This document shows, in pieces, positions 9,011 to 42,704 of a stretch of DNA of 64,000 nt; positions within the stretch are counted from its first letter, which is position 1, and the number at the start of each line of letters is the position of its first letter. Location: NCBI RefSeq assembly GCF_900187325.1, contig NZ_FZMZ01000004.1, positions 124,001-188,000 on the forward strand, read 5' to 3'. The stretch comes from Virgibacillus ndiopensis (GTDB lineage: Bacteria > Bacillota > Bacilli > Bacillales > Amphibacillaceae). The translations under genes were made by a program, and so were the position numbers. Below the pieces are notes generated by a model. The model searched no databases and was not told where the DNA came from. It saw only the letters and a program-made list of their open reading frames with translations.

Positions 9011-9039
9011 AGTATACATTAATTGAAAGCGATTTACAA
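9011..9039 (-). promoter_or_regulatory. Promoter of the LacI/TRAP operon with overlapping cre-like site
   Basis: On the minus strand, -35 TTGTAA (9039-9034) and -10 TATACT (9016-9011) are separated by 17 bases. TGAAAGCGATTTACA (9024-9038) overlaps the -35 and spacer; it equals the cre consensus apart from one inserted base, or could be a third LacI-family site. No further promoter was recognised within the downstream operon. Confidence 0.55.
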
Positions 9040-9225
9040 TAGTTGTTTTATTTTTTTAGGGGATTTTAAATATTTTATCTTTTTCAAATAAAGCTAAGTA
9101 AATATTCTATAACCGAACTTCTCCATTAAAATACCCTTCTAACCTAATTTAAAGATTAGAAAGGTAAATGTAAGAGATGATTCATTTTATCTGATTTAAA
9201 AATAAATAAAGTAAACAATGAATAA

Positions 9226-23620: not shown

Positions 23621-23680
23621 ATTAGTAGATTAGCAAGAAGGGTGCGTCTTGTTCTTAATTTTTAAAGGTAGGTGCTGGAT

Positions 23681-24595: not shown

Positions 24596-24609
24596 AAAGG
24601 AGACAGGCA

Positions 24610-26641: not shown

Positions 26642-26675
26642 ATTCCGAATATTATAAAGGATGGGAGTAATTTGA

Positions 26676-26924
26676 ATGTTAAAATTCAAAAAGGAACCAA
26701 TTAAGAACGGAAAGTTATGGATTGTTTTTGGTGTTTTATTTCTGTTAAGTGTCCCCTGGTATTTACCTGAAGGCAGTTATAAGCCGTTATTTCTAGGAAT
26801 ACCATATTGGGGTTGGATCATAATTCTTGTATCAGTAGCTTTTTCAGCAACCATTACGTATGCGATTAAATACTTATGGATAACGGAGGAAGAAGATTCG
26901 AATTATAAGGAGGATGAGCAATGA
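26676..26924 (+). CDS. Small DUF3311-like membrane protein, partner of the symporter
   Basis: An 82-residue protein with two membrane helices (LWIVFGVLFLLSVPWYL and GWIIILVSVAFSATITYAI) and an acidic tail. The layout with LFLGIPYWGW between helices is that of DUF3311 proteins (such as B. subtilis YhjC), which are regularly encoded just before an SSS-family symporter. Its stop overlaps the symporter start codon by four bases. Probably an accessory subunit; its function is not known. Confidence 0.75.
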   Translation: MLKFKKEPIKNGKLWIVFGVLFLLSVPWYLPEGSYKPLFLGIPYWGWIIILVSVAFSATITYAIKYLWITEEEDSNYKEDEQ

Positions 26925-28414
26925 CAGGAGATTTAGCTTTTGGTGGTTGGTCTGGCGTTCTAATAATAGTGGTGTATGGGCTCATCATGTTATCAATCGG
27001 ATTGATTACGTTTTTTAAAAATAAAAATATCCGAGAAAGTAACCAAGAATACTACTTAGGCGGAAGAGGCTTAGGTGTGATGGTCCTTTTTTTCACATTC
27101 TATGCTACCCAATACAGCGGTAATACTATTATAGGATACGCTCCTCAAGGGTATAGAATTGGCTTCGAATGGTTACAATCTATCACATTCATGATTCTAG
27201 TCATGGTTGGATATTTATTGTTCGCTCCAAGGTTATATGTACTTAGCAGAAAATATAATTTCGTTACACCATCAGACTGGCTTGCTAAGCGTTTCCGGTC
27301 AAAAGGTATTACCATTTTAGGTTCCTTTCTTATGCTATATGGCTTAGGTAACTACCTTTTGGAACAACTTGTAGCTGTCGGACAAGGTGTTTCAGGACTA
27401 ACTGGTGGTACTGTACCATATCAAATTTGTGTAATCTTTTTCATCGTGATTATGCTTATCTACAGCTGGCTAGGTGGTATGCGTTCGGTAGCTTATACAG
27501 ATACAATGCAGGGAATTGCTCTTCTCTTTGGTGTATTCATACTAGTTATAGGATCAATCCTCTATTTTGGCGGGCTGCCATCAACTGCGGATTACATGGC
27601 AACTTTTACACCTGAGAAACTAGGTGTTCCGGCAACAAATGGATTAGTCGGTTGGTTCAGTATGCTAGCCCTTGTACTGATTGGAGCATCCATTTACCCT
27701 CATGCCATTCAACGGATTTTTTCCGCGAAAAATGAAAAGACATTAAAAAATTCATTGATTGGTATGGCATGGATGCCTTTCCTTACCACTGGAGTAATCT
27801 TGTTGGTTGGAATTATCGGAGTCAGTGCATTTCCAAACTTGAATGAAATGGAATCTGAACAACTGGTTGGGATGATGGCGAATGCTATTGCGTCGGAGAA
27901 TGTATTTTTCTATTGGGCAATGATACTGTTATTCGGTGGAATTATTGCTGCTATTATTTCAACTGCTGACTCCGTATTATTAACTTTTTCCTCAGTCATT
28001 TCAAAAGATTTATACGGAAGATATATTAATCCAAAAGCAACAGAACATAAACAGATTTTCGTTGGAAAAGTTGCCGGTATTGTTGCAACTGGAATACTAT
28101 TAATAATAGCTTGGTATCCTCCTGCAACATTATACCAGATATTTGTTCTCAAATTTGAATTACTCGTCCAAATTGCACCAGCCTTTATTCTTGGACTGTA
28201 CTGGAAACAGCTACATACCAAATCCGTTTTTGTCGGAATGGTTGCTGGTACAATTCTTGCTACTACAATGACATTTGCAAATTTTACACCATTTGGCATA
28301 TTCAGCGGACTTTGGGGGTTATTCGTTAACCTGATTATATGTGTAGTTGGTAGCCTTTTATTTACTATTTCAAGGTCTGAAGAAGAAGCAATTGATAAGG
28401 TTATTGGGTTGTAA
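26921..28414 (+). CDS. Sodium:solute symporter (SSS/SLC5 family)
   Basis: A 497-residue protein with about 13 helices. Typical SSS features are the N-terminal NQEYYLGGRGLGVMVLFFTFYATQYSGNTIIG, SDWLAKRFRSKGITILGSF, YSWLGGMRSVAYTDTMQG and IAAIISTADSVLLTFSSVISKDLYGRY (sodium-site Ser/Asp). The last gene of the GntR operon, followed by a strong terminator. It imports the acid consumed by the LeuCD/CoA-transferase/lyase enzymes in sodium symport. Nearest relatives by pattern are pantothenate (PanF)-like and YhjB-like carriers, but substrate cannot be read directly. Confidence 0.92.
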   Translation: MTGDLAFGGWSGVLIIVVYGLIMLSIGLITFFKNKNIRESNQEYYLGGRGLGVMVLFFTFYATQYSGNTIIGYAPQGYRIGFEWLQSITFMILVMVGYLLFAPRLYVLSRKYNFVTPSDWLAKRFRSKGITILGSFLMLYGLGNYLLEQLVAVGQGVSGLTGGTVPYQICVIFFIVIMLIYSWLGGMRSVAYTDTMQGIALLFGVFILVIGSILYFGGLPSTADYMATFTPEKLGVPATNGLVGWFSMLALVLIGASIYPHAIQRIFSAKNEKTLKNSLIGMAWMPFLTTGVILLVGIIGVSAFPNLNEMESEQLVGMMANAIASENVFFYWAMILLFGGIIAAIISTADSVLLTFSSVISKDLYGRYINPKATEHKQIFVGKVAGIVATGILLIIAWYPPATLYQIFVLKFELLVQIAPAFILGLYWKQLHTKSVFVGMVAGTILATTMTFANFTPFGIFSGLWGLFVNLIICVVGSLLFTISRSEEEAIDKVIGL

Positions 28415-28617: not shown

Positions 28618-29409
28618 TTATAACGCCTTTACAAGTCCACCATCCACGACAAACGATTGTCCGGTTATATACGTGTTCGCACCTGATGATAGGAAAACTA
28701 CCATTTTAGCAAATTCATCAGGACGGCCATATCTGCCTATTGGAATTGATTGTTCCGTTTGTTCACGTAATTGCTCATAAGAAACACCTGTTTTATCAGC
28801 TCTTATTTGATCTAATTCAGCAACTCTATCTGTTGCAATACGGCCAGGACCAACTGTATTTACCATAATATTATCCTTTGCTAGTTCTTGGGATAAGCTT
28901 TTTGATAAACCTACAATTCCAGCGCGAAATGTATTGGATAAAATTAAATTATCTAGTGTTTGTTTAATAGACGACGATGCAAAATTAACAATCTTTCCTT
29001 CACCGGTTTTTCGCATATGCGGTAGTACCTCACGAATTAAACGGATAAAACTTAATAAATTCAATTCATATGCTTTTTGCCAATCTTCATCAGAAAATTT
29101 GTCAAATCCCCCTGCTGGTGGACCACCAGCGTTATTAATTAAGATATCAACCTTCCCATTCCACTCAACAGCCGTTGCGACTAATTGTTTGATTGATTCA
29201 GGATTCGTGATATCACAAACCGTGTAACGAACATGTTCGTTTCCACTCTCCATTTTAATTTCTTCCACCGCTTCTTTTAAGGTTTCTTTATTACGGCTGG
29301 AAATAAGAACATGCGCACCTTCTTTTGCAAATTGTAGTGCTGTACCTTTCCCTAAGCCTTTACTTCCTGCTGTTACGACAACTGATTTCCCTTGTAATTG
29401 TAAATCCAA
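28618..29409 (-). CDS. Short-chain dehydrogenase/reductase (atypical active site)
   Basis: A 263-residue SDR. NAD(P)-binding TAGSKGLGKGTALQFAKEG at the N-terminus, NNAGGPPAG mid-protein and ITGQSFVVDGGLVKAL at the C-terminus are clear. The usual catalytic Y-x-x-x-K is replaced: after SSSIKQ the sequence reads LSNTFRAGIVGLSK, with Asn/Arg at the Tyr/Lys positions, as in a known subgroup of SDRs annotated as 3-oxoacyl reductases. Start is TTG at 29409 after AAAGGAGG. It follows the FAH gene by 15 bases, and in sugar-acid pathways such an SDR oxidises 2-keto-3-deoxy acids to 2,4-diketo acids. This role is inference. Confidence 0.85.
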   Translation of the reverse strand: MDLQLQGKSVVVTAGSKGLGKGTALQFAKEGAHVLISSRNKETLKEAVEEIKMESGNEHVRYTVCDITNPESIKQLVATAVEWNGKVDILINNAGGPPAGGFDKFSDEDWQKAYELNLLSFIRLIREVLPHMRKTGEGKIVNFASSSIKQTLDNLILSNTFRAGIVGLSKSLSQELAKDNIMVNTVGPGRIATDRVAELDQIRADKTGVSYEQLREQTEQSIPIGRYGRPDEFAKMVVFLSSGANTYITGQSFVVDGGLVKAL

Positions 29410-29424
29410 AACGAATAACCTCCT

Positions 29425-30300
29425 TTATTTTTCAACCTTTAAATCTTTTACCGAATTCACAAGTGGTGTAAAACCTTCAATTTCACACGAAACAACATCT
29501 CCGTTCCTAATAACTACAGCACCAGGGGTACCAGTAGAAATAATATCACCAGGAAGTAACGTCATTACTTTTGAATGAAAGGATACGAGATTCCATGGCA
29601 GAAATGTCATATTAGAAACAACATTTTTTCGATGAAGCTTGCTATTTATAATTGTAGATACTTCTAAAGCATTGACATCCTCAATTTCATTAGTCGTTAC
29701 GAGATGTGGTCCAAAGCTAAAGAATGTATCAAAACTTTTTGAACGTGTTAAATACCGTGGGTTTTTTTGTAAAATATCTTCTGCTGTCATATCGATAACC
29801 GTTGTATAACCAGCTACATAATTTATTGCATCTTCTTCTGAAACGTCTTTACACTCTTTTCCAATAACAATTCCAAGCTCTGCTTCAGCTGTCGTACGCT
29901 CTGATTGATTTGGAATTTTAATTACATCATTCTGGCCAATTATTGATGTATCTGGTTTCATAAAACTAGCAGGCTCTGTATTTGGAGCTTTTTCACTAAG
30001 ATCGGATGCATGTTCGACATAATTAAGCCCAATTCCCCAAATCTTACGAGGATGACGATATAAAGGAGCATATGTAACCAGTTCACTGTCCATATAATCT
30101 ACTTTTTCAAGCTCCTGCATTCCTTGATTTTCATACCAAGCACTAAGTTCAGCTAACTGACCAGATCGAATAAGCTCTAACAAGTTCGTTTTCCATTTTC
30201 CACCTAATGATTCATTCACCCTATCTAGTAAATAAACCTTTTCATTCAAGACAATTGCTGCTATTTCAGAACCGTTATGTTTTATCGTTGCCAAACGCAT
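29425..30300 (-). CDS. Fumarylacetoacetate hydrolase-family protein
   Basis: A 291-residue FAH-family enzyme. Family residues are seen in IWGIGLNYVEHASD (catalytic His-like region), ERTTAEAELGIVIGKECKDVSEEDA (metal-binding Glu's), GYTTVIDMTAEDILQ, and LLPGDIISTGTPGA (metal Asp and product-binding Thr). Members hydrolyse C-C bonds in 2,4-diketo acids or decarboxylate oxaloacetate-like acids. Beside an SDR and acid-sugar dehydratases it fits a 2,4-diketo-3-deoxy-L-fuconate/rhamnonate hydrolase giving pyruvate plus lactate. Oxaloacetate decarboxylase-type activity is the main alternative. Confidence 0.9.
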   Translation of the reverse strand: MRLATIKHNGSEIAAIVLNEKVYLLDRVNESLGGKWKTNLLELIRSGQLAELSAWYENQGMQELEKVDYMDSELVTYAPLYRHPRKIWGIGLNYVEHASDLSEKAPNTEPASFMKPDTSIIGQNDVIKIPNQSERTTAEAELGIVIGKECKDVSEEDAINYVAGYTTVIDMTAEDILQKNPRYLTRSKSFDTFFSFGPHLVTTNEIEDVNALEVSTIINSKLHRKNVVSNMTFLPWNLVSFHSKVMTLLPGDIISTGTPGAVVIRNGDVVSCEIEGFTPLVNSVKDLKVEK

Positions 30301-30342: not shown

Positions 30343-31593
30343 TTAATTTTCAGATATTTTGTATTGTAATTGTTCCTTTTCAAAATCCATTTTTATCTTT
30401 CTAATAACCTTATAATCTATATTATTCTCAAGTTTATCTAATACAGATTTCGAAATATATAGTCGACTAAGGTGAAGCGTATTAGCTATTTGGATAAGAG
30501 TTATTTCTTCTCTATCTACTTCCGGGCCTAAACTTAAGAGAGCAGATTCTATTGCTTTCTGTTCCGATTCGTAGAATAGCGGAAACATGGCCCTCTGTAG
30601 GTATGTTGCTGTAATTGCATTCATATAGGTGGATTTTCTATCTATTTTTTCTATCAATTTTTCCGTTGTAAAATCAGCCAACCCAACACCTTGTGCATTC
30701 CCATAAGATTTATCAGCTAAGTCTAACACAACAATACGTTTAATATTCGGCTCTACCGGTTCAGGTACACCTTCGATTCGCCAACGTCCAATAATATTCG
30801 GATCCATTCCAGTTCCACTGAAACATTTCCCCATTTCTTCGACTATCAGTACATCAACATCCTTTATTGGTATGGAAGGCATCAGTTGTTTTGAATGCTT
30901 TAATAAATTCGCCTCTTGCTCATGCCAACTTTCAACATTAATACCTTTAATGACGGACGTTTGGTCATACCCATTTTCAACAATAGCAAGCCCCATGCAG
31001 ATAGGAGCATGTTCAAGTGCATACTTTGAAACCTCAATAATATTGTGTTCCATCTTATTTGCACCTTGCCCATGAACGAAGCTTGCTCCTTTTTGTTTAC
31101 CGAGTCCAATGGTAACCATTTTACTTAAACCACTCTCTACTTTTCCACGAAAGGCAGTATGAACTTTAATTCGATTGATAACGATAATAGCATCAGCCTG
31201 GTAGGCAAACTTATCCATGTACACAGGCAAATTATCTGGGGTAGTTCCAATCTTTAAGACTTCCATTGAAGAGCGAATGGGAGCTTTAACAGATTCCTCC
31301 GTTATCCCAAGATGACGAAGGATTTCAACCTGTCCTTCTGAGGTAGCACCGCCATGACTTCCCATCGCAGGAACAATAAATGGCTTGAGTCCCTTTTCTT
31401 TCAAGTAACTAACAACTTCCTTAAGAATTGTTACGATATTTTCAATGCCTCTACTACCTGCTGTTATAGCAACTTCAGCATCTTTAGGAAGCGAATTTAG
31501 CTTTTCATTCCTTTGCAACTCTATCCTGATTGTATTTTTTAAATCATTCAGTTTTTCCCCATTGAATATTTGTTCAATTTCATATAAGTACAC
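30343..31593 (-). CDS. LarA-like (DUF2088) lactate racemase-domain protein
   Basis: A 416-residue protein whose N-terminal half matches the lactate racemase (LarA/DUF2088) domain: VAITAGSRGIENIVTILKEVVSYLKEKGLKPFIVPAMGSHGG, then ADAIIVINRIKVHTAFRGKVESGLSKMVTIGLGKQKGA. True LarA carries a covalent nickel pincer on a Lys and needs LarB, LarC and LarE, none of which is in the window. The lysine-rich VHTAF segment differs from LarA's nickel site, so another acid may be the substrate. Start GTG at 31593 follows GGGAGGTGG. Its place after dehydratase/FAH/SDR genes suggests epimerisation of a 2-hydroxy acid. Confidence 0.8.
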   Translation of the reverse strand: MYLYEIEQIFNGEKLNDLKNTIRIELQRNEKLNSLPKDAEVAITAGSRGIENIVTILKEVVSYLKEKGLKPFIVPAMGSHGGATSEGQVEILRHLGITEESVKAPIRSSMEVLKIGTTPDNLPVYMDKFAYQADAIIVINRIKVHTAFRGKVESGLSKMVTIGLGKQKGASFVHGQGANKMEHNIIEVSKYALEHAPICMGLAIVENGYDQTSVIKGINVESWHEQEANLLKHSKQLMPSIPIKDVDVLIVEEMGKCFSGTGMDPNIIGRWRIEGVPEPVEPNIKRIVVLDLADKSYGNAQGVGLADFTTEKLIEKIDRKSTYMNAITATYLQRAMFPLFYESEQKAIESALLSLGPEVDREEITLIQIANTLHLSRLYISKSVLDKLENNIDYKVIRKIKMDFEKEQLQYKISEN

Positions 31594-31658: not shown

Positions 31659-32186
31659 TTATTTGGCTATAAGTCTAGACTTTTCCAATGCTTGTATACT
31701 AGCAGGAACTAGAATAAGTTGGATGATAATACCTGGTAATGCCGTAACAAATGCAGAGGTAAAAAACACTGCTAAACCATATGGATTGTTGGCTAGGTTA
31801 AAAAGAAAAATGTTTACAATACCCAACACAATTCTGCCACCAAGCATTGCCCCCAATATACTGATTAAAATTTTACCATTAGTATAGTGATACAAAATAC
31901 CGGTTAAAGCACCATAGGTACCCAATTCAAATATCATTGCTATACCTATAGGAAAGATTGGAGGCATTCCAGTTAGAATGGATGCTAATAGAGGCAACGT
32001 CATACCGCATAAACCACCTAAACGCCAGCCACAAAGGAATCCACAAATTAGTACTGGAATGTGCATGGGTAATAAAACTGAACCTGGGTAAGCCATCGGT
32101 ATCATTTTTACAATCTGTGGCAATAACAGTCCAATGGCAATACACAGGGAAGTAAAAACAATACTTCTAGTATGAATATACCTCAT
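31659..32186 (-). CDS. ECF transporter S component-like membrane protein
   Basis: A 175-residue protein with about six helices. MRYIHTRSIVFTSLCIAIGLLLPQIV and the MHIPVLICGFLCGWRLGGLCGM region (H-x-P-V/L followed by a glycine-rich G-x-x-x-G helix) are typical of ECF S components that bind vitamins or small molecules and dock on shared EcfT-EcfA-EcfA'. The start ATG at 32186 has AGGAG seven bases before it; an upstream in-frame ATG at 32201 is part of that site. No energising module is encoded here. Co-location with a nucleoside-kinase-like gene suggests uptake followed by phosphorylation, or an unusual small acid as substrate. Confidence 0.75.
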   Translation of the reverse strand: MRYIHTRSIVFTSLCIAIGLLLPQIVKMIPMAYPGSVLLPMHIPVLICGFLCGWRLGGLCGMTLPLLASILTGMPPIFPIGIAMIFELGTYGALTGILYHYTNGKILISILGAMLGGRIVLGIVNIFLFNLANNPYGLAVFFTSAFVTALPGIIIQLILVPASIQALEKSRLIAK

Positions 32187-32237
32187 ATAGGATCTCCTCA
32201 TGTTATTTTAGAATCTTATAGTCACAACAAAATGTAT

Positions 32238-32849
32238 CTATTCCCACAGTAAGGTTGTATCAAACACAAGGTCACATTTGGATTTGATATTTAGTTCTGA
32301 GAAATAATCCTCCTCCAGGGGAATCCATTGATTAACGAACCTTTGATACATTGCTTCTCCGTTACGTTTAAGGATTCGCTCCTCTTGAACTTGTGAATCC
32401 ACTGTTAAAAATATACTGTAGTCATAATCCTGCTGAAGAATAGGATGCATAGCATATACACCCTCAACGATAGCAAGCTTCTTTAGCTCTACAAAAATGG
32501 GCTCAGTCAAAGATTGTATGGTACAATCATACGGACGATAACTTACAGTTTCACGAGATTGCAAGGGAATAAGCACTTCTTCCCGGAATCTCTCGTAATG
32601 TATATTTCCGCCTGGCTGTGCCATTCGTTCCCTTGTTTTCATTTCGAACGGAAGAAAGAAGTCATCCATATGAAATACATTACAGTCAAACACTTTCGCC
32701 AAGAAGGCTGCCAAAGTGCTTTTTCCACTGCCACAACGGCCATCTACTGCAATTAATGCAGGCTCACCCTTCATCAAGAGCCTTTCTACTGCTTCTACGA
32801 TAGGAAGATAACGAACCAGCCCTATTTTCTGTTTAAGACCTATTTCCAT
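32238..32849 (-). CDS. Uridine kinase-like P-loop kinase
   Basis: A 203-residue P-loop kinase. Walker A is DGRCGSGKST, followed by FHMDDFFLP (catalytic Asp of uridine kinase/phosphoribulokinase-type enzymes) and LAIVEGVYAMHP (Walker B-like). AGGAGG lies before the ATG. The family phosphorylates uridine, pantothenate-like or other small alcohols with ATP or GTP. In this position, between a dehydratase and an ECF S component, it most likely traps the molecule that the S component imports. Its substrate is not identified. Confidence 0.8.
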   Translation of the reverse strand: MEIGLKQKIGLVRYLPIVEAVERLLMKGEPALIAVDGRCGSGKSTLAAFLAKVFDCNVFHMDDFFLPFEMKTRERMAQPGGNIHYERFREEVLIPLQSRETVSYRPYDCTIQSLTEPIFVELKKLAIVEGVYAMHPILQQDYDYSIFLTVDSQVQEERILKRNGEAMYQRFVNQWIPLEEDYFSELNIKSKCDLVFDTTLLWE

Positions 32850-32900: not shown

Positions 32901-34040
32901 CTATACTTTCACAGCTATATCGTGAACTTTTTCATCAACTAAGTATTTCTTAATAGCATTCTCATTCCATTCTATCCCAAGCCCATCTCCTTCATGAGGT
33001 TTCAGTGTTCCACGACTAGTCACTTCCATAGGATTATGCATAATGAGATCAAAGTTTTTGACATTTGTACCGTTAAACTTTTCTAAGATTGATACTTCCC
33101 TGGAAACGCACCCCAATTGTACATGAATATCCCAATGATAATGTGGAGCGATAGATACTCCTTGGGTGCTTGCCAAACTTGCAATTTTCATCCATTCCGA
33201 AACACCTCCACATTGTGTTGCATCTGGTTGGACATAATTTAGGGAACGATCCTTAATAAACTGTTGGAATTCCCAACGGGTCGCTCCAATTTCTCCAGTA
33301 GCTAGTGGAATAGAAGTTTGGTTTTTTAATCGTATATAACCTTCAAAAAAATCCATTGGCAGTGGTTCTTCAAAGAAAGTAATGTCATATTCTTCCACAC
33401 GTTTACAAAGGTCTAAGCATGCATTAACATCTAAGAAAGATTGATTAGCATCAATCATTAATTTAACATCTGGACCAATGACATCTCGTACTAGTTTTAC
33501 ACGCTTAGCTTCTTGAGCATTGGCGAGTCTGCCAACCTTCATCTTAACAGCGTTGAACCCTTTGTCCATATACCCCTCTACTTCTTCCTGAAGCTTTGTA
33601 AAAACTTCTAATCCTTCATAATAGTAGCCACCAGACGCATAACAAGGTACTTCTTCTCTACTAGCCCCAAGCAGTTTATAAAGTGGCATTTTACTTAATT
33701 TCGCTTGGTGATCCCAAAGCGCAATATCAATAGCAGAAAGCGCATGTAAGAGATTTCCTCTTCTACCTGCCCGGACTGTTTGGAAATATAACTTATCCCA
33801 AATCTTTGCAATATCCCTTGGATCCTCCCCAACTAACATTGGTACTAGTAATTCATCCATTGCAGCTTTAGCCGCACCCCCACTCACATCTTGAAGACAA
33901 AATCCAACACCTTCAATTCCTTCATCAGATTGAATTCTTACTAAGAGGTGTTCACGATGTGTTAGGGTCTTAATCGACCACCCTACAGGACGTTCTAACG
34001 GGATTCTTACCCATTGTGTCGTTACCCTTGTAATCTTCAT
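32901..34040 (-). CDS. Enolase-superfamily acid-sugar dehydratase (mandelate racemase/MLE family)
   Basis: A 379-residue member with mandelate racemase-type active site. Catalytic residues seen are KMK (in FNAVKMKVGR), metal ligands in LMIDANQSF, FFEEPLP and PLATGEIG, the QPDATQCGG Asp, and the His in SIAPHYHWDIH. Start ATG at 34040 follows AGGGG-type site; a longer frame to 34061 is unlikely. It follows the 2-hydroxyacid dehydrogenase gene and precedes the kinase-like gene. Likely to dehydrate an aldonate, for example L-fuconate or L-rhamnonate, to a 2-keto-3-deoxy acid, which the SDR and FAH enzymes downstream could process. Substrate is inference. Confidence 0.9.
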   Translation of the reverse strand: MKITRVTTQWVRIPLERPVGWSIKTLTHREHLLVRIQSDEGIEGVGFCLQDVSGGAAKAAMDELLVPMLVGEDPRDIAKIWDKLYFQTVRAGRRGNLLHALSAIDIALWDHQAKLSKMPLYKLLGASREEVPCYASGGYYYEGLEVFTKLQEEVEGYMDKGFNAVKMKVGRLANAQEAKRVKLVRDVIGPDVKLMIDANQSFLDVNACLDLCKRVEEYDITFFEEPLPMDFFEGYIRLKNQTSIPLATGEIGATRWEFQQFIKDRSLNYVQPDATQCGGVSEWMKIASLASTQGVSIAPHYHWDIHVQLGCVSREVSILEKFNGTNVKNFDLIMHNPMEVTSRGTLKPHEGDGLGIEWNENAIKKYLVDEKVHDIAVKV

Positions 34041-34136
34041 AACAATACCCCTTTTCAACATATTGTATTTAACATTTTGAAATGTAATTGATACAAGTAA
34101 TTTCTTAGCAAATCATCGTATGATTCTAAATTTCCA

Positions 34137-35123
34137 CTATAGTAATCTAGCGTATTGTACCCCATTCACAACATGTTGTGGAACATCACCATTTTCAACT
34201 CTTTCTATGTTTTCAAACGCCATTTTGAAGACACGATTGAGAGTATCTCTTGTCCCTGCCCCGACGTGAGGAGTGGCAATAACATTATCTAACGTAAGCA
34301 AGGGATTATTTATTTCAGTCGGTTCAGATTCCCAAACGTCAATTCCCGCACCAGCAATAACATTATTTGTTAATGCTTTAAATAAAGCGGATTCTTCAAC
34401 AATGCCTCCTCTTGAAACATTGATCAATACCGCATTGGATTTCATCATTTGTAGCTCTTTCTCTCCAATTAACCCCTTTGTTTCAGACAAAAGAGGAATA
34501 TGAAGACTTACAATATCTGATGACTTCAAAATCTGCTCTATTGATAAAAAAGTTGCATCCAATTCCTTTTCAATCTCTAAAGGCGCCCGAAATTTATCAT
34601 AATAAACTACTTTTGTTTCGAATGCCTTAGAACGTCGAGCTGCTTCTTGGCCAATATTTCCAAACCCAATAAATCCATGGGTTTTTCCACTCATTTCGTA
34701 GGAGGAAGGTCGAAATTCCCACATTGGCCAATCCCCTAACTTTGTTTTTTCATTTATAAGTGGAAGTTTTCGATATAAAGCTAGAATTAGTAAAATTGTA
34801 AGCTCAGAAACTCCTCTAGCATTTGCTCCTGGAGTATTCGCTACTGGCAGATTGTATTTTTTAGCATCTTCTAAATTAAAGTTATCCACACCAATCCCAG
34901 TTTTTTGAACAAGTTTTGCATTTTTTGCTTTAGAAAAAATGGCTTCATCAAGATATTTTGTTGCAACTAGTAAATAATCAGCTGTTAATAGATTCTCTTG
35001 TTGTTCAGTCTCACTCATCTCTTCCCAAAACAATAAATCAAATCCATCAGGTTTATTTTCAACCAAAAGTTGTTTTAAACTATCAAACACTTGGTCGAAA
35101 TAAAGTATTTTCTTACTTGTCAT
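34137..35123 (-). CDS. D-isomer-specific 2-hydroxyacid dehydrogenase (SerA-like)
   Basis: A 328-residue dehydrogenase. NAD-binding GFIGFGNIGQEAARRSKAF, the catalytic Arg in INVSRGGIVEE, the Asp/Glu in VIAGAGIDVWESEPTE and the catalytic His in VIATPHVGAGT are present. It lacks the serine-sensing ACT domain, so it is a catabolic hydroxyacid or glyoxylate reductase rather than biosynthetic SerA. Start ATG at 35123 follows GGAGGGG. It sits between TctA and the enolase-superfamily dehydratase. Two other proteins of the family are encoded at 58102-59055 and 63572-64000, each near a TTT system. Confidence 0.9.
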   Translation of the reverse strand: MTSKKILYFDQVFDSLKQLLVENKPDGFDLLFWEEMSETEQQENLLTADYLLVATKYLDEAIFSKAKNAKLVQKTGIGVDNFNLEDAKKYNLPVANTPGANARGVSELTILLILALYRKLPLINEKTKLGDWPMWEFRPSSYEMSGKTHGFIGFGNIGQEAARRSKAFETKVVYYDKFRAPLEIEKELDATFLSIEQILKSSDIVSLHIPLLSETKGLIGEKELQMMKSNAVLINVSRGGIVEESALFKALTNNVIAGAGIDVWESEPTEINNPLLTLDNVIATPHVGAGTRDTLNRVFKMAFENIERVENGDVPQHVVNGVQYARLL

Positions 35124-35143
35124 TTTTATATTCCCCTCCATAT

Positions 35144-36673
35144 CTAAGCTAAATTTTCCTCATCACCTAGATTCATTTTTTGTTCCTTTCTTTTTTTCAT
35201 TAGTTTTGTAACCATAGGAGTAAGCACAGATAGAAGGATCAGGATGATTAAAATTAAACATATTGGACGGGTAAAATAGTAAGAAAGTAAATCCCCCTTA
35301 GCAAGAACTAATGATTGTCGAAATCCTTTCTCTGCAATTGGACCCAAGATCATCCCCAAGATAACAGGTGCAGGATGAAATCCAATTTTGCGCATTAGAT
35401 ACCCGATAAAACCGAAGAACACCATTACCCATACATCAAAGAAATTATTGTTTATTGCATAAGCTCCAACAATACATAATGCAACAATAATTGGACCTAA
35501 AATTTTATCCGAAATACTAGATGCCTTCACAAAAAACTTTGCACCTAACAAGCCAATGATCCCCATTAATATATTTGCTAATAAAAAGCCAAAAATAACA
35601 GAGTACGTAACGCCTGCATGTGTCGTAAATAATTGATGCCCTGGTTGAAGACCTTGAATTAACAATCCTCCAAGTAGGACAGCTGTTGTTGAGCTTCCGG
35701 GGATACCTAATGTGAGTAATGGAATCAATGCTCCACCAGTTACGGCATTATTAGCAGATTCCGGTGCGGCAACTCCCTCAATGATTCCAGTCCCAAACTT
35801 ATCCTTATTTTTCGAGAATCTTTTCGCTTCATTATAGCCAACCCATGAACCAATGTCCCCGCCTGCACCGGGGAGCATCCCTACAAACGTTCCAATTCCA
35901 GATGAACGTATTATTGTTTTGAAAATACGTTTAAACTCCTTCATTGTCGGGAGTACTCTACCTGAAATCGATGCCTTTTTTAATTTTTTTTGTTTCGTTT
36001 TGGGCTCCCTTTGCATCATTACTTGTGATAAAGAGAATAATCCAATCATCGCCGGTACCATAGCCACACCACCCTGTAACGTTGTACTTCCAAACGTAAA
36101 CCGAGGGTATCCTGTTAATATATCAATCCCAACTGTACCAATAAGCAACCCAATAACGCCCGATGCCAAACCTTTTGCCATCGACTTCCCAGCAAGACTA
36201 CCAATAATCGTTAATCCGAATATGGCAATTAAAAAGTACTCAGGAGAACTAAACCATAAAGAAATTTTCGCTAGCGGTGGTGCCAAAAATAAGAGAAACA
36301 ATGCACTGATAAAACCGCCAATCATTGACGATACCGTTGAGACACCAATAGCTTTTGCACCAAGCCCTTTCTTGGTCATTTGATAACCATCAAGAGCTGT
36401 TGCCGCCGAAGCAGGAGTTCCAGGAGTATGAATGAGAATGGAAGAAATAGACCCCCCGTACAGAGCTGCCGTATATATAGCTGCCAACATGGTTAAGCCT
36501 GCCACTGGTTCAAGCCCGAAAGTCACAGGAACTAGTAGGGCCACTGCCATTGTTGCACTCAGTCCTGGAAGGGAGCCAACAATGATTCCACCTACTACCC
36601 CGGCAAACAATGCTAAAATCGTTTGTAATGTAAATAAATTACCAAGCACTTGCGAAAATAGTTCTGCATTCAC
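35144..36673 (-). CDS. tctA: TTT transporter large membrane subunit (TctA family)
   Basis: A 509-residue protein with about 12 helices; signatures are VGGIIVGSLPGLSATMAVALLVPVTFGLEP, HTPGTPASAATALDGYQMTKKGLGAKA, the second-half counterpart SSGIGTFVGMLPGAGGDIGSWVGYNEAK and the ESANNAVTGGALIPLLTLGIPGSSTTA loop. It transports an acid captured by the TctC protein at 37224. Order C-B-A with spacings of 58 and 12 bases. The neighbouring sugar-acid enzymes suggest an aldonate or keto-acid substrate. Long plus-strand frames within it are shadows. Confidence 0.95.
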   Translation of the reverse strand: MNAELFSQVLGNLFTLQTILALFAGVVGGIIVGSLPGLSATMAVALLVPVTFGLEPVAGLTMLAAIYTAALYGGSISSILIHTPGTPASAATALDGYQMTKKGLGAKAIGVSTVSSMIGGFISALFLLFLAPPLAKISLWFSSPEYFLIAIFGLTIIGSLAGKSMAKGLASGVIGLLIGTVGIDILTGYPRFTFGSTTLQGGVAMVPAMIGLFSLSQVMMQREPKTKQKKLKKASISGRVLPTMKEFKRIFKTIIRSSGIGTFVGMLPGAGGDIGSWVGYNEAKRFSKNKDKFGTGIIEGVAAPESANNAVTGGALIPLLTLGIPGSSTTAVLLGGLLIQGLQPGHQLFTTHAGVTYSVIFGFLLANILMGIIGLLGAKFFVKASSISDKILGPIIVALCIVGAYAINNNFFDVWVMVFFGFIGYLMRKIGFHPAPVILGMILGPIAEKGFRQSLVLAKGDLLSYYFTRPICLILIILILLSVLTPMVTKLMKKRKEQKMNLGDEENLA

Positions 36674-36685
36674 TTCATTACCCTC

Positions 36686-37165
36686 CTACTCAAACAAAAT
36701 TCCCTTTGGCAGTTGAACGTTCAATTGTAAAATAAATACCAGATAAATAAACAGATTGAGTCCTACGATTGTGAAAGCGTAAGACTTCCAATCTTTAACC
36801 TTTAAAGCCCATAAAAAACCAGCTATAAATAGTACCGTTGCAGGGAAAAACCCCAAAAATTTAATGACGACCGCATACGCAATAACCGCCAATAGCGTAA
36901 TCATTGGAGATTTCAGAAGTTTTCCTGTTAATGGTTCTTCCTCACCATCATACATTTCATTATGATCACCTACTTCTGCTCTCATCTTCTTGGTTTTCCT
37001 TATCCCACCTATTACTATCAAAACAGCAAAGAAAACAAGTAAATAAAGAAGATACCTAGGGGCCATTACAGCATCCTCATTCATATCTAACGTTTGGATA
37101 TACAAAAAGATAGATACAAGAAACATGATGATGGATACATAGATATCCTGATGAATCCTTTGCAT
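36686..37165 (-). CDS. tctB: TTT transporter small membrane subunit (TctB family)
   Basis: A 159-residue protein with four helices (IIMFLVSIFLYIQTLDM, YLLYLLVFFAVLIVIGG, ITLLAVIAYAVVIKFLGFFPATVLF, YAFTIVGLNLFIYLVFILQL), typical of DUF1468/TctB. The ATG follows GGGAGG. It lies between tctC and tctA. It assembles with TctA in the membrane; the mechanism of the small subunit is not known. Confidence 0.88.
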   Translation of the reverse strand: MQRIHQDIYVSIIMFLVSIFLYIQTLDMNEDAVMAPRYLLYLLVFFAVLIVIGGIRKTKKMRAEVGDHNEMYDGEEEPLTGKLLKSPMITLLAVIAYAVVIKFLGFFPATVLFIAGFLWALKVKDWKSYAFTIVGLNLFIYLVFILQLNVQLPKGILFE

Positions 37166-37223
37166 AAGTTAACCTCCCTTTTTATAAGGGTGACCGTACC
37201 AATGGTCCGGTCACCAATACTTT

Positions 37224-38234
37224 TTACCACTCTACTAAATCGATTAATTCCTTAACATCTTCCTCGTCGCTTTTTAGTAGATCCATATACGCTTGACCTG
37301 CTTGGAAATTCACTGCTAAGCCCATATCTTTCATTTTTTTAATGTGATCCGGATTTGTAATCGCTTTCTTTAGGGCTTCACGTAAAATTTCTACTTTTTC
37401 TTCAGAGATCCCTGACGGTGCAGCTAAGCCCCTTGCTGACCAGGAATAAACATCTGGGTAACCTGCTTCTGCCAATGTCGGAATATCAGGAAGGAACTCT
37501 GAACGTTCTTCTGACATTGTTGCTAAAATTTTTATTTCGCCATTCTGGTGTGCAGTAAATGTTTCCCCTACATTTGCAAACAATACATCCGTGTGCCCAC
37601 CTAACACTTGTGCTTTACTGTCTGCTGCTCCACTATTATGAACTGGAACAAACTTCGTACCATACTTTGCATTAAGTTTTAATGATGCATAATGATCATC
37701 ACTTCCAACACCTGTGGATGTTGCTGTTAATTCATGTGTTTTTGCATATTCAATCAATTCCTTTATGTTCGAGAAGCGATCATCATCTGGATTAATTGCA
37801 ATTGCACCAAAGTCTGATACTTGATTTGCTAATGGTACAAAACTGCTCAAATTTTCTTTACGTTCAATGTTAGGGTTCAAATAACCTGTCATAAGGTTCG
37901 GAGTATTAATAAATCCTAAAGTATAACCATCTGGTTCAGCATTTGCTAGCTCGCCCCAACCAACCCAGCCTCCGCCCCCTGCCTTGTTAATAATATTTAC
38001 AGATACACCAAGTTCTTCTTCCAAAAATGGCTGCAATATTCTTGCACCCGTATCAGTACCTCCACCAGCCGCATACGCAACAATGATATTAATAGGCTTG
38101 TTAGGATAATCTCCGGAGGATTCCTGATCATTCCCATTTTTTGCAGATGATTCTTCATTTCCATTACAACCGACAAGTAATACAAGACTAAAGACCACCA
38201 TGATTAGAGCCTGAAAAATTGATTTAGTTTTCAC
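37224..38234 (-). CDS. tctC: TTT transporter substrate-binding lipoprotein (TctC family)
   Basis: A 336-residue Bug-family protein. The signal peptide ends LVGC (lipobox). The binding loop is INIIVAYAAGGGTDTGARIL, and the NKAGGGGWVGWGELANAEPDGYTLG segment is typical of TctC; the pocket loop includes ATSTGVGSDDHYASL. It begins the TTT genes and follows the Ldh2-type reductase by 13 bases, so it is transcribed from further upstream (IlvD/GntR region). Confidence 0.94.
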   Translation of the reverse strand: MKTKSIFQALIMVVFSLVLLVGCNGNEESSAKNGNDQESSGDYPNKPINIIVAYAAGGGTDTGARILQPFLEEELGVSVNIINKAGGGGWVGWGELANAEPDGYTLGFINTPNLMTGYLNPNIERKENLSSFVPLANQVSDFGAIAINPDDDRFSNIKELIEYAKTHELTATSTGVGSDDHYASLKLNAKYGTKFVPVHNSGAADSKAQVLGGHTDVLFANVGETFTAHQNGEIKILATMSEERSEFLPDIPTLAEAGYPDVYSWSARGLAAPSGISEEKVEILREALKKAITNPDHIKKMKDMGLAVNFQAGQAYMDLLKSDEEDVKELIDLVEW

Positions 38235-38247
38235 AATTCTTTCCTCC

Positions 38248-39303
38248 TTAAAAAATAGTTTTTACTCCGTACCGTCGTGCAACTAGTGACAATTCATCTA
38301 CAACTTCCTTAGATAAAGGAATGCCGTTCACCTCTCTTTCAAACTGTTTCTCAGTCTCGATTTCTCCTGGTAAATAAATCTTTTCAACACCCTCAATTAA
38401 GGGGACCTCACGAATTTTATCAATCATTTCATCTATTCTATTTTTAAACTGATCTAGTGTTTGCAATAGATCTGCCCGAAAAACAAGGAAAAACTGTCCA
38501 ACATTTTGTGTTTTCGATAAATCCCTATATAGATCTCCAATATGTGGTCCAAATGCAGCACCAGTAAAAATAGCAGATAACGATTCTACTAAAAATGTAA
38601 GCCCGTAACCCTTTGGTCCTCCTACTGGTAATACCAAACCATCAATTGCCTCACTTGGATTCTGAGTCGGTTTTCCTTCTTTCGTAATAGCCCAACCAAT
38701 TGGAATGTTTTGGTTATCTTTTTGTGCTAATAAAATCTTGCCTCTCGCTACCTTACTCGTTGCCATATCAAAAACAATATTTTGATGCCTTCCTGCAGGT
38801 ATACCGTATGAAAATGGATTTGTTCCAAAAAAACGTTCCTTACCACCCCAAGGTGCCATATTGGCAGGTGCATTGGTTACCGCTATACATACACAATCAT
38901 TTTTTGCTGCATACGAAGTATAATCAGCAAGCATCCCACAATGATTTGAATTTTTGATTCCAACTATCCCAATCCCCGATTGTTTTGCTTTATCAACAGC
39001 TAACTTTATACCTTTTGTAGCTAAAACTATTCCTAAACTATTTTCTCCGTCAATAAGTGCACTGGCGCTTGTTTCCTTTTCTATAAAAGAGCCATCCACT
39101 TTATTAACAATTCCTCGGTCTAATCGCCTTGTATAAATATCTGTTCGACTCACTCCATGGGAATCTACCCCTCGTAGGTTTGCTAAGACAAGATGCTTTG
39201 CAACAATTAACGCGTCACTTTCATCAACCCCAGCAGCAATAAATATATCTGTAATAAATGTCTCAAGAACTTTATGAGGAACTCGAATTGCTTTCTTAAT
39301 CAA
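38248..39303 (-). CDS. Ldh2/YiaK-family NAD(P)-dependent 2-oxoacid reductase
   Basis: A 351-residue malate/L-lactate dehydrogenase family protein. It has LANLRGVDSHGVSRTDIY (catalytic His), GIKNSNHCGMLADYTSYAA, FFGTNPFSYGIPAG, IVFDMATSKVARGKI and LPVGGPKGYGLTFLVESLS. Start TTG at 39303 is nine bases after AAAGGG; GTG at 39312 is too close to that site. It overlaps the stop of the RraA-like gene. Candidate substrates include 2-keto sugar acids or lactate/pyruvate-type acids; similar to the paralogue at 4789-5799 but adapted to another pathway. Confidence 0.9.
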   Translation of the reverse strand: MIKKAIRVPHKVLETFITDIFIAAGVDESDALIVAKHLVLANLRGVDSHGVSRTDIYTRRLDRGIVNKVDGSFIEKETSASALIDGENSLGIVLATKGIKLAVDKAKQSGIGIVGIKNSNHCGMLADYTSYAAKNDCVCIAVTNAPANMAPWGGKERFFGTNPFSYGIPAGRHQNIVFDMATSKVARGKILLAQKDNQNIPIGWAITKEGKPTQNPSEAIDGLVLPVGGPKGYGLTFLVESLSAIFTGAAFGPHIGDLYRDLSKTQNVGQFFLVFRADLLQTLDQFKNRIDEMIDKIREVPLIEGVEKIYLPGEIETEKQFEREVNGIPLSKEVVDELSLVARRYGVKTIF

Positions 39304-39979
39304 AGATGACACACCCTTTTTGGTTTAACGTTTCATCTATCCAACTTCGATCCCATTTCCCTTTATATATGGATGTTATAATTTCTTCTTCTTTTTCAGC
39401 ATGGGCATTCGCTTCCTTTAGAATCTGCTTTGCATCTTCTTTTGGAACTACAACGACTCCATCGTCATCCCCAACAATAATATCTCCAGGTTTAACAGCG
39501 ACCCCGCCACAACTAATAATCGTATTTATTTCACCGGGTCCTTCTTTGTATGGGCCCCTAGGAGTTCCACCTTTAGCAAAAACAGGATAATCCATGTCAG
39601 CAATACGTTTCAGATCACGGACTGGTCCATCAACTATATAGCCAGAAATTCCTCGAAATTTTGCATAATGACACATGATCTCTCCCAAGATTGCATTTCC
39701 CATGTCCCCACAAGCATCAATAACGATAATATCACCAGGCTGTGCCAAATCCATCGCTTTATGTACCATTAAATTGTCAGATGGATGTGTTTGTACGGTG
39801 AAAGCACTTCCGACAACATGGATACCGGGCTTATTGACAGATTTAATGGCGTAATCCATCGCTCCAAACCTTCCCATAACATCACCTATATTCGCAGTAG
39901 GCAAAGCTTTAAATCCTTCGATAATTGACTGATCTATTCTTTTTATTGAGCAATTAATTCGAAATCCATTTTCAGCCAT
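39296..39979 (-). CDS. RraA-family HMG/CHA-aldolase-like protein
   Basis: A 227-residue RraA/HMG-CHA aldolase family protein. The sequence TANIGDVMGRFGAMDYAIK near the N-terminus and VIDACGDMGNAILGEIMCHYAKFRGISGYIVDGPVRD, with the conserved G-x-x-x-x-x-x-x-R-x-x-G and R-D, fit class II pyruvate aldolases that cleave 4-hydroxy-4-methyl-2-oxoglutarate or related keto acids, and metal-dependent oxaloacetate decarboxylases. Start ATG at 39979 follows AGGAGGGAAAGGG. A large hairpin lies just upstream in the leader (40005-40051). Next to the IlvD-type dehydratase it could cleave the 2-keto acid formed. Confidence 0.85.
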   Translation of the reverse strand: MAENGFRINCSIKRIDQSIIEGFKALPTANIGDVMGRFGAMDYAIKSVNKPGIHVVGSAFTVQTHPSDNLMVHKAMDLAQPGDIIVIDACGDMGNAILGEIMCHYAKFRGISGYIVDGPVRDLKRIADMDYPVFAKGGTPRGPYKEGPGEINTIISCGGVAVKPGDIIVGDDDGVVVVPKEDAKQILKEANAHAEKEEEIITSIYKGKWDRSWIDETLNQKGCVIFD

Positions 39980-40004
39980 GAATCCCTTTCCCTCCTCATC
40001 CATT

Positions 40005-40051
40005 TCCAATAGATTACTTCATAAATAACGAAGCAGAAGTAATCTAATGGA
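40005..40051 (-). other. Long intercistronic stem-loop upstream of the rraA-like gene
   Basis: Arms of 16 bases at 40005-40020 and 40036-40051 pair with a single mismatch around a 15-base loop. No T run follows, so it is not an ordinary terminator. In the transcript it ends a few bases before the rraA-like ribosome site and could affect mRNA processing, stability or translation. Confidence 0.55.
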
Positions 40052-40166
40052 AAAAGCATATTTAGTCTCTATTTTTTAATAGCAATAAACATAAATAAAA
40101 CCAATCTTCTGAATATGGTTCCAAAAATAATACAGGTTGTGATTCTACCAAACTATTGATATGGAT

Positions 40167-41858
40167 TTAATTGTTTTTAACTGGCAATAGGAAATCAAAA
40201 TCACATCCTTCATTTGCCTGTAATACATGATCCCGATACATTTTCGTATATCCCCTTAAATTTGTTTCATCTGCAAAAGGCGTCAAATTATTTTTACGTA
40301 TAGTTAATTCATCATCCGTTACATGTAATGTTAATCTCCCGTTTTTTACATCTAAGGAAATCTCATCCCCATCTTGTATTAAACTGATAGGCCCACCTAT
40401 TGCGGCCTCGGGAGCAACATGAAGAATAACAGTGCCAAAAGCTGTACCACTCATACGACAATCAGAAAGACGAACCATATCACGAACTCCTTCTTTCAGT
40501 AATTTCTGAGGTATTGGAATCATACCTGCTTCAGGCATACCAGGAGCACCAACTGGACCTGCGTTTTGTAAAACTAAAACACTATCTTTATTTACGTCCA
40601 GATCATCAGAATGTATCCGATTCTCCATATCTTCTATAGATGAAAATACAACAGCCTTCCCCCGGTGATTTAATAGTGACTTATCTATTACGGCTTTTGG
40701 TTTAATAAGTGAACCATCTGGAGACAAATTCCCTTTCAATACCCTGATTCCCCCTTTATGATAAAGAGGATTATCTAGTGTATAGATAACATCTCTGTAA
40801 CTATCTTTTACGTTAATATTTTTTACATTTTCTTGGATTGAAAGCCCATTTACAGTTCTTTCATTTGAATGAAGCAACGGTAACAATTCATGAAGTACTG
40901 CAGGAACACCACCGGCATGATAAAATTCTTGCATTTGATACTTTCCTGCTGGCCTAAGGTTAGCAATGAAAGGAGTAGATTGACTAAGTTTGTCAAAGTC
41001 ATCTAAACCAATAGTAATGTTTAACCTTTTAGCAATAGCAATCAAATGAATCACCGCATTGGTTGAACCACCTATAGCCATTAGTAGTTTGATAGCGTTT
41101 TCAAAAGACTCTTTAGTCATAATATCAGATGGTTTTATGTCGTCTTTCACCAATTGGACTGCCTGTTCCCCGGTTTTTTTGGCCAAACGGAGACGCTCGT
41201 TTACAGTAGCAGGAGCAGCAGCACTACCAGGTAGCATCATACCAAGCGCCTCAGCACAAGATGCGATTGTACTAGCTGATCCCATTACCATACAATGACC
41301 TGCGGTAGGAGCTAATTGGGCGTTTATTTCATTTAATTCAGCTTCATCTATCGTTTCCGCCTTATATTCCTGCCAAAAGTAGCGGCAATCAGAACAAGCT
41401 CCAAGGGTTTTGCCATCATATTCTCCATTCGCCATTGGTCCTCCAGTAAATAGAATTGCTGGTTTATTTGCGCTTGCAGCACCCATTAATTGAGCAGGGG
41501 CCATCTTGTCACAGCCACCAATCAACACTACTCCGTCAATTGGTTGGGCCCTGATCATTTCTTCCGTATCCATTGCTACAAGGTTACGGTAGAGCATTGT
41601 CGTTGGACTCGTAAACATTTCCCCAATTGAAATTGTTGGGAATTCAAGCGGTGTTCCTTCAGCAGCGATTACACCATTTTTAATTGCATTAACCATCGGC
41701 TGAATATGACTATGACACCGGTTTACTTCACTAAATGTATTGCATATTCCGACAATTGGTTTTTGTAAATCACGTTCATCAAACCCAAGGTGACGTTGAA
41801 ATGCAGTTTTTAGAAAGCTACTAAAACCAGTATCACCATACGAAGTAGTAAATTTCAT
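40167..41858 (-). CDS. IlvD/Edd-family dehydratase (sugar-acid dehydratase type)
   Basis: A 563-residue member of the dihydroxy-acid/phosphogluconate dehydratase family. Motifs seen are VGICNTFSEVNRCHSHIQPMV, GGCDKMAPAQLMGAASANKPA (cluster Cys), GHCMVMGSASTIASCAEALGMMLPGSA (second Cys) and GGSTNAVIHLIAIAKRL. AAAGGAGC precedes the ATG. With the GntR regulator upstream and an RraA aldolase, Ldh2 enzyme and TTT transporter downstream, it is more likely an aldonate dehydratase (L-arabinonate/D-xylonate type) than the valine-pathway enzyme; no other ilv gene is near. Confidence 0.9.
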   Translation of the reverse strand: MKFTTSYGDTGFSSFLKTAFQRHLGFDERDLQKPIVGICNTFSEVNRCHSHIQPMVNAIKNGVIAAEGTPLEFPTISIGEMFTSPTTMLYRNLVAMDTEEMIRAQPIDGVVLIGGCDKMAPAQLMGAASANKPAILFTGGPMANGEYDGKTLGACSDCRYFWQEYKAETIDEAELNEINAQLAPTAGHCMVMGSASTIASCAEALGMMLPGSAAAPATVNERLRLAKKTGEQAVQLVKDDIKPSDIMTKESFENAIKLLMAIGGSTNAVIHLIAIAKRLNITIGLDDFDKLSQSTPFIANLRPAGKYQMQEFYHAGGVPAVLHELLPLLHSNERTVNGLSIQENVKNINVKDSYRDVIYTLDNPLYHKGGIRVLKGNLSPDGSLIKPKAVIDKSLLNHRGKAVVFSSIEDMENRIHSDDLDVNKDSVLVLQNAGPVGAPGMPEAGMIPIPQKLLKEGVRDMVRLSDCRMSGTAFGTVILHVAPEAAIGGPISLIQDGDEISLDVKNGRLTLHVTDDELTIRKNNLTPFADETNLRGYTKMYRDHVLQANEGCDFDFLLPVKNN

Positions 41859-41956
41859 GCATACGCTCCTTTCAATCCAACATAGTTGTAGTAAAAGATT
41901 TTGCGAGATTATTCAATTTCTTCAACAAAAACCCGTTTAGCAGCTATTTCTTTAAA

Positions 41957-42673
41957 TCAAGTTTTAAAAATGCTTTGAAAATGACGTTGTTTAATACCTT
42001 GATGATGCTCCCACATTGTTCTTTTTGCTTCTTCTGGATTATTGTTCATAATGGCTAAAAATATATTTTCATGTTCTTTCATTACTTCATTAGTTAATAC
42101 ATCACTTTTAATTGAACTTTCCTTACTCTCTTTCAAACCTTGTAAGATCCTATCAGCCATTAAATTCATAACTTCCAACATTACATGATTATCAGCTATT
42201 TCAACTATCGTATAATGAAATTGATAATCCTCTTCAGTAGCAAATTCAACTTGCTTCTTATTGCCCTTAAGATTTTTATACACATTTGTTAATTTTTCTT
42301 TTTGTTCTTCAGTTATCCTAGATGCTGCATAATAGGCAGCATCTACCTCGATTGCCTGTCTAAGCTCAAATAAATCTTTAAAACCAGACCGTTTATCTGC
42401 AATTATTTGGGATAGCTTATTTAATAACCCTTTTTGAGATTCCATATTTAAAAACATTCCAACTCCAGGACGCACTGTAATCACATCTGTAGACTCTAGA
42501 ACTGTTATAGCTTCTTTTACAGAAGTTCTGGAAACACCTAAAGTTTCTGCTAAATACCTTTCTGAGGGTAACTTTTCACCAGGTTTAATCTCTTCTTCTT
42601 CAATTGCAGTTTTAATTTGTTCAATAATATCTTGATAGACTCGTTTTCTTTTTTTAATCGGTTTCAAATGCAT
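41957..42673 (-). CDS. GntR-family regulator, FadR/FCD subgroup
   Basis: A 238-residue regulator. The winged helix is YQDIIEQIKTAIEEEEIKPGEKLPSERYLAETLGVSRTSVKEAITVLESTDVI, followed by an FCD sensor domain (LFELRQAIEVDAAYYAASR, EDYQFHYTIVEIADNHVML). Start ATG at 42673 is six bases after GAGGGGG; in-frame starts at 42679 and 42688 overlap that site. An 11-bp perfect palindrome (42705-42715) between its promoter and start suggests autorepression. It heads the operon reading through the IlvD-type dehydratase to the SDR gene. Confidence 0.9.
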   Translation of the reverse strand: MHLKPIKKRKRVYQDIIEQIKTAIEEEEIKPGEKLPSERYLAETLGVSRTSVKEAITVLESTDVITVRPGVGMFLNMESQKGLLNKLSQIIADKRSGFKDLFELRQAIEVDAAYYAASRITEEQKEKLTNVYKNLKGNKKQVEFATEEDYQFHYTIVEIADNHVMLEVMNLMADRILQGLKESKESSIKSDVLTNEVMKEHENIFLAIMNNNPEEAKRTMWEHHQGIKQRHFQSIFKT

Positions 42674-42704
42674 GTTCATCCCCCTCACTGACTCTGTGAC
42701 CTAG

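Follow-up and report, generated by a model that had tools for sequence, protein, structure and literature searches.

The stretch of Virgibacillus ndiopensis DNA analysed here (64,000 nucleotides, hereafter the window) encodes, amid genes of sugar-acid metabolism, an ECF S component and a uridine-kinase-like protein side by side on the minus strand (31659-32849), raising the question of which compound such a pair would bring into the cell and modify in this setting. The first-pass annotation had recognised both proteins from the letters and their translations, and both identities held, with Pfam matches (PF12822 for the S component, PF00485 for the kinase) and folds in agreement. What remained to be asked was whether the two genes belong together, and what they serve.

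The S component, the kinase and their gene run

The S protein (31659..32186, minus strand) scores 63.4 bits against PF12822 (cut-off 30.7), and its AlphaFold model (pLDDT 86.4) has the fold of an S component as predicted: the top 11 Foldseek matches in the PDB are all S components or ECF complexes, with TmRibU and ThiT leading (probability 1.00, query TM 0.51-0.62, E 0.0056 or worse). The gene probably starts at the ATG at 32186 (175 aa) rather than at 32201, because Met-6 is invariant in five aligned close relatives and an AGGAG lies just upstream, and the DNA before the first ATG (32201) shows no AGGAG-like site. Judged by sequence, the protein appears to stand outside any clear vitamin group tested: it has no NCBIfam match to the known vitamin S groups (RibU, ThiT, FolT, PanT, BioY), phmmer against PDB sequences returned nothing relevant, and the best hit of a profile search against the PDB is a RibU at E 0.0015. 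The genome carries three further PF12822 genes (L043-L045). The window's S component sits in a well-supported clade of ten (100/97), with the kinase upstream in all ten.

The kinase (32238..32849, minus strand) scores 25 bits against PF00485 (PRK/uridine kinase; cut-off 22) and falls far below the cut-off of the Udk equivalog TIGR00235 (20.9 vs. 220.3 bits). Its model (pLDDT 92.9) places it in the PRK/uridine-kinase group with a predicted ribonucleoside-kinase fold, the nearest structures being uridine-cytidine kinases (TM about 0.7, ~20% identity), and a profile match to NRK1 extends over the P-loop and a DDFF-type motif (E 1.7e-6); we regard it as a putative nucleoside 5'-kinase. Across 14 aligned kinase sequences, G42, K43, D62, E129 and G130 are invariant, and the family has conserved motifs of its own, GGNx[HD]Y and WIPxE. 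Position 84, which we take, from matching by eye, to be the uridine-kinase Asp that binds the ribose diol, is His in nine of the 14 sequences, that of the window among them, and Asp in the remaining five. Several kinases from Clostridia (L233 at 2025-3110, protein P0001, as well as L228, L237 and L240) have an extra N-terminal region of ~190 aa, for which P0001 gave no Pfam match. In several Clostridia loci a DUF3842 gene is convergent to the kinase: L244 (507-920, Pfam-checked), L228, L230, L233 and L268 (6021-6485).

The run to which both genes belong lies entirely on the minus strand. Its first part (34137..42688) holds, in order of transcription, genes for a GntR-type regulator, an IlvD/Edd-type dehydratase, an RraA-like protein, Ldh_2, TctC, TctB, TctA and a 2-hydroxyacid dehydrogenase, most of them with Pfam or NCBIfam matches and TctA and TctB assigned by eye. 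There follow an enolase-superfamily sugar-acid dehydratase (32901..34061; PF13378/PF02746), whose top NCBIfam match is TalGalacDh (257 bits, under the cut-off of 500), then the kinase, the S component, a LarA-superfamily enzyme (30343..31593), a FAH-family enzyme (29425..30300; PF01557) and, as the final gene, an SDR dehydrogenase (28618..29409; PF13561/PF00106). Spacing is tight around the pair, with 51 bp between dehydratase and kinase, 36 bp between kinase and S, and 65 bp between S and LarA. Rfam found no riboswitch on the window, and a promoter scan found sites more rarely than in shuffles. Adjoining the cluster on the plus strand (22424-28414) are CoA-transferase, HMG-CoA-lyase-like, LeuC-like, LeuD-like and sodium-solute-symporter-like genes, all assigned by eye.

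The LarA-superfamily enzyme directly downstream of S falls into NPN isomerase group 22 (NF052515; 530.8 bits, cut-off 400), a putative user of the nickel-pincer cofactor NPN. It keeps the equivalents of R75, H108, H174, K184 and H200, which are the NPN-binding and catalytic residues of LarA according to excerpts of PMC11770544; the same excerpts describe NPN as a pyridinium mononucleotide, with its phosphate bound by R75. The five residues are complete also in nine further LarA proteins listed, and are kept, in the same order, in 77/81/77/81/81 of 81 aligned sequences. The FAH-family gene is a recurrent partner of LarA group 22, a gene 62-65% identical to it adjoining the group 22 gene in 4 of 5 genomes of genus g27 (L257-L261).

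Recurrence of the pair and of its neighbours

A scan of named genome contigs yielded at least 568 relatives of the S component among at least 595 matching stretches, the best 80 of which were kept. In 39 of these best 80 loci, a same-family kinase is encoded less than 700 bp from S and in the same orientation; in another 15 a SAM-dependent methyltransferase (~195 aa) is found within 500 bp of S instead of the kinase. Methyltransferase-linked loci include L078, L085-L088, L090, L101 and L119. In a class-wide sample, the 30 best-scoring S loci (best matches rather than a random draw) had a kinase nearby in 18 cases, a methyltransferase in one and LarA in one. The pairing of kinase and S is beyond chance, and the gene-neighbourhood survey that the first-pass annotation had called for thus shows the transporter-kinase pair to be genuine and conserved, each member having a known fold.

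Closer to the window, a survey of 159 genomes from its own GTDB family shows a kinase orthologue (E below 1e-50) in 7 besides the window's. It adjoins S in G003, G111 and G114, and the pair is present too in G400, a genome of another family; the stretches retrieved around the orthologues of G080, G089, G072 and G070 (48-57%) showed no S. Where kinase matches in the family were weaker than E 1e-50, 22 loci (L013-L034) were checked for a neighbouring S. The contexts of the pair vary, with uxaA/uxaB-like genes in G003 and CoA-transferase-like genes in L075 (both by eye) and rho in L081. Rfam was run on 20 S loci as well, again with no riboswitch; over these loci and the window it returned only tmRNA and tRNAs.

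This variety bears on the most local explanation, namely that the two proteins take up and phosphorylate a metabolite that the neighbouring pathway derives from sugar acids. Its place inside the window's sugar-acid cluster and beside the uxaA/uxaB-like genes of G003 would fit such a role, but elsewhere the flanking genes often have nothing to do with it, the cluster already holds a TctABC-type transporter, and the S components characterised to date serve, to our knowledge, vitamins, metals and cofactors, so that we consider this explanation very improbable. Import of a pathway sugar was likewise ruled down, the contexts being too varied. Of the two substrates that the first-pass annotation had suggested, the sugar-derived compound is therefore left without support, given the other contexts and the often LarA-less genomes in which the pair is found, while a cofactor for the LarA-like enzyme gained support from comparative evidence.

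That evidence begins with physical linkage. S, the kinase or both are neighbours of LarA in the window, G111, G114, L127, G639 and G762; in G639 the genes for S and LarA share 4 bp, and LarA, S and a divergent kinase stand together in G762. LarA loci with S or the kinase within about 1.5 kb numbered 5 of 22 from genomes lacking LarC (PF01969, nickel insertion in NPN synthesis), vs. 0 of 53 from genomes that have it. A second family enters here as well, since DUF362 and LarA are placed in one Pfam clan in excerpts of PMC11770544, and the two have in common a segment surrounding a conserved His and Lys (hhalign probability 93.5, E 2e-7). Six of the 80 loci have a DUF362 gene no more than 2.5 kb from S (L102 at 4814-5755, L103 at 9019-9972, L110 at 1553-2496, L122 at 3801-4715, L123 and L132), and such genes are near S also in G625, G660 and G735; further coordinates of DUF362 genes near S are 8822-10243 in L265, 816-2922 in L266 and 8211-10181 in L267. 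Some of the DUF362 proteins near S are lipoprotein-like, and in L265 and L267 a permease-like gene (by eye) is among those in between.

Taking LarA-superfamily genes together, 9 of the 80 loci have one within 2.5 kb of S, vs. 2 matches in the 849 kb beyond (p = 6e-4, uncorrected), an adjacency weaker than this count suggests: L102, L103, L110 and L122 are almost indistinguishable in the S tree, and in L148 LarA runs on the other strand. Once those four loci are merged into one, 6 lineages near S compare with 2 matches far from it (p = 0.012), and S adjoins LarA or DUF362 in about six lineages. Mere chance co-location, the pair being unconnected with either LarA or sugar-acid metabolism, could point to G003 and G400, where the pair and LarA are on separate contigs; against a recurring adjacency and the genome-level co-occurrence described below, we find it hardly credible.

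LarA, LarC and S across genomes

The window genome (100% complete) contains one LarA match and no match to LarC. In G111 and G114, LarA lies directly before the kinase, and the question therefore arose of whether such genomes make NPN: a LarC search of G000, G003, G111 and G114 gave no match, though each has LarA, and in G400 the pair, LarA and LarC are all present. Among the 159 same-family genomes, LarA occurs in 60 and LarC in 50, all 50 LarC genomes also having LarA; the ten with LarA and no LarC are G000, G003, G111, G114, G115 and five of genus g27. An adjacent kinase-S pair (S being looked for around kinase matches) was seen in 4 of these 10, vs. 0 of 50 genomes with both LarA and LarC and 0 of 99 without LarA. 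Within the LarA-bearing family genomes, the relation between pair and LarC has p = 4e-4 with kinship ignored, and the same comparison by genus gives 3/4 vs. 0/11 (p = 0.009). The five g27 genomes have a LarA of group 22 with intact residues, no LarC, and kinase matches that are weak and uridine-kinase-like or none; G115 has a LarA that reaches the contig end, no LarC and no kinase match.

We additionally searched 196 genomes of the class Clostridia (the class of G578) for LarA, LarC and S. At an S cut-off of E <= 1e-33, which like the stricter cut-off of 1e-45 was chosen after the list had been inspected, S was found in 36 of 41 genomes with LarA and no LarC and in 8 of 32 with both (Fisher p = 4.6e-8, not phylogeny-corrected). 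The genomes with LarC and no LarA comprised 6 with S and 35 without, and S occurred in 32 of 82 genomes with neither gene. This main table treats six weak or partial LarC matches as absent, along with LarA matches above 1e-8; scoring the six as LarC leaves S in 33/38 vs. 11/35 (p = 1.3e-6), and the cut-off of 1e-45 gives 30/41 vs. 7/32 (p = 1.7e-5), neither value being phylogeny-corrected. The search's own cut-off of 1e-15 adds G687 and G743 (38/41), with the genomes that have both LarA and LarC unchanged at 8/32.

Among LarA-bearing genomes, S and LarC are thus complementary, and one or the other is present in 68 of 73 LarA-bearing Clostridia, vs. 73 of 123 without LarA. Incomplete genomes are unlikely to be the cause, because a LarC that had simply been missed would leave S as frequent as in the genomes with LarC. 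The main weakness of the Clostridia figures is shared ancestry, which is uncorrected. Many of the genomes surveyed are MAGs. Makers and users of NPN often differ in this sample, 41 of 73 genomes with LarA having no full LarC and 41 of 73 with LarC having no strict LarA.

The Clostridia also bear on whether the pair might salvage some other nucleoside-type cofactor, such as alpha-ribazole or a pyridine nucleoside, its overlap with LarA in LarC-less genomes then reflecting taxonomy, with S common and LarC rare in the same lineages. Within LarC-less Clostridia, S depends on LarA (36/41 vs. 32/82, p = 1.4e-7, not phylogeny-corrected), which argues against such an account, yet the same comparison leaves S in 32 of 82 genomes without LarA or LarC, and the co-occurrence statistics lack phylogenetic control. 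CblT/CblS, moreover, is a transporter-plus-kinase salvage pair described in Firmicutes (excerpts of PMC6461909 and PMC6167548). Weighed against these points are the lineages in which S adjoins LarA or DUF362, and the 20 S loci and window, in which neither a cobalamin riboswitch nor any other Rfam riboswitch was found. A pyridine nucleoside feeding NaAD would further be expected to favour LarBCE genomes, the opposite of what is seen. Overall we judge salvage of another cofactor rather unlikely. Two narrower candidates were rejected or marked down: nickel import, which would not accompany a missing LarC, and nicotinate riboside for NaAD, which predicts the reverse relation to LarC.

In the named-record genomes, LarA and LarC were searched for in 48 genomes, from 49 hand-chosen of the 80 loci, mostly with a recognised partner (L113 was left out). 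Of the 32 with a kinase-linked S, both LarA (strict) and LarC are missing from 19, 8 have LarA alone, 4 LarC alone and 1 the two together; the 19 include Thomasclavelia cocleata (G560) and the bearers of close relatives of the window's S (G540, G541, G543 and G545). Possible reasons for S in LarA-less genomes are NPN users other than LarA, or a different substrate. Excerpts of PMC11796402 report that many genomes carry LarBCE without LarA and that the field suspects non-LarA users of NPN.

The partner of S matters in these hand-chosen genomes, LarC being present in 9 of 9 with a methyltransferase-linked S, vs. 5 of 32 with a kinase-linked one (p = 5.7e-6). Methyltransferase-linked S accompanies LarC and kinase-linked S does not; the S family is therefore not uniform, and it may carry several NPN-related compounds. 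This would suit a scheme in which the pair feeds an alternative NPN synthesis, a nickel-free precursor nucleoside being imported and phosphorylated before another enzyme inserts the nickel, and such a scheme predicts the same pattern of LarA without LarC. It needs, however, an extra nickel-insertion enzyme, LarC being the sole one described in excerpts of PMC11796402, and we hold it to be improbable.

Proposed salvage of a nickel-pincer cofactor and its relation to known systems

The best-supported reading, to which we give an even chance of being correct, is that kinase and S component form a salvage module for the nickel-pincer cofactor, serving LarA-type enzymes. The S protein, a candidate NPN- or nickel-pincer-nucleoside-binding subunit, would bind NPN with high affinity, most likely as the dephosphorylated, nickel-carrying nucleoside. 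Free nucleotides, such as NMN and FMN, usually lose their phosphate before uptake, and the natural import form would therefore be the nickel-pincer nucleoside; as LarC is absent, the imported molecule should already hold its nickel. A shared ECF energizing module (presumed) would drive entry of the NPN nucleoside, upon which the uridine-kinase-like enzyme would re-add the 5'-phosphate, trapping the molecule and restoring NPN. The restored NPN would then load enzymes of the LarA type, which in the window means the adjoining group 22 LarA within the sugar-acid cluster; in genomes without LarC, salvage would replace the de novo NPN route. Counting against this reading are the Clostridia that carry S with neither LarA nor LarC, the 19 genomes with a kinase-linked S that lack both, the g27 genomes and G115 with LarA but neither LarC nor a close kinase match, G400 with the pair and LarC together, the four kinase orthologues around which the retrieved stretches showed no S, and the His at position 84 in the window's clade.

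More speculatively, and with doubt prevailing, NPN may be a shared bacterial vitamin, with the module letting many LarC-less, LarA-bearing Clostridia use the NPN of others, and with S-adjacent DUF362 proteins binding NPN, some of them extracellularly. If the salvage module and this extension of it are true, an organometallic cofactor would be a traded nutrient, with the LarA enzymes of many anaerobes relying on neighbours, and a widespread orphan S component (at least 568 relatives) and its kinase would gain a function. It would also explain how LarA works without LarC and mark DUF362 as a further NPN-binding family, and the question of which non-LarA proteins use NPN would become directly testable. 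Our searches of the open-licence literature turned up no account of NPN uptake: PMC7583248, PMC11796402 and PMC11770544 use neither "salvage" nor "transporter", and the nickel-pincer passages among excerpts of PMC8305020 concern biosynthesis.

Several described systems resemble parts of the proposed module. With the group II ECF transporters (RibU, ThiT, PanT, FolT, CbrT and the heme ECF system), the window's S component shares its S-component family and fold, but its sequence matches none of the solved S components clearly; for B12 and heme, uptake by ECF systems is already published, according to excerpts of that work. The kinase, for its part, has the fold and P-loop of uridine-cytidine kinase and nicotinamide riboside kinase 1, with motifs that are its own.

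There is also a likeness in design to CblT/CblS, in which a transporter gene is likewise coupled with a kinase that adds a phosphate to the nucleoside taken up, part of a cofactor being salvaged rather than made. CblS probably belongs to another kinase superfamily, and cobalamin riboswitches are common upstream of B12 genes. The window's pair differs in its proposed ligand and in having no riboswitch in the 20 S loci and the window, and none of the NCBIfam matches listed is named CblT or CblS. CblT/CblS itself accounts for alpha-ribazole salvage in Firmicutes (Gray and Escalante-Semerena 2010, as cited in excerpts of PMC6461909 and PMC6167548). Finally, NPN biosynthesis by LarB, LarE and LarC, as described in excerpts of PMC11796402, arrives at the same end, a loaded LarA, which the module of the window would reach by salvage instead of synthesis.
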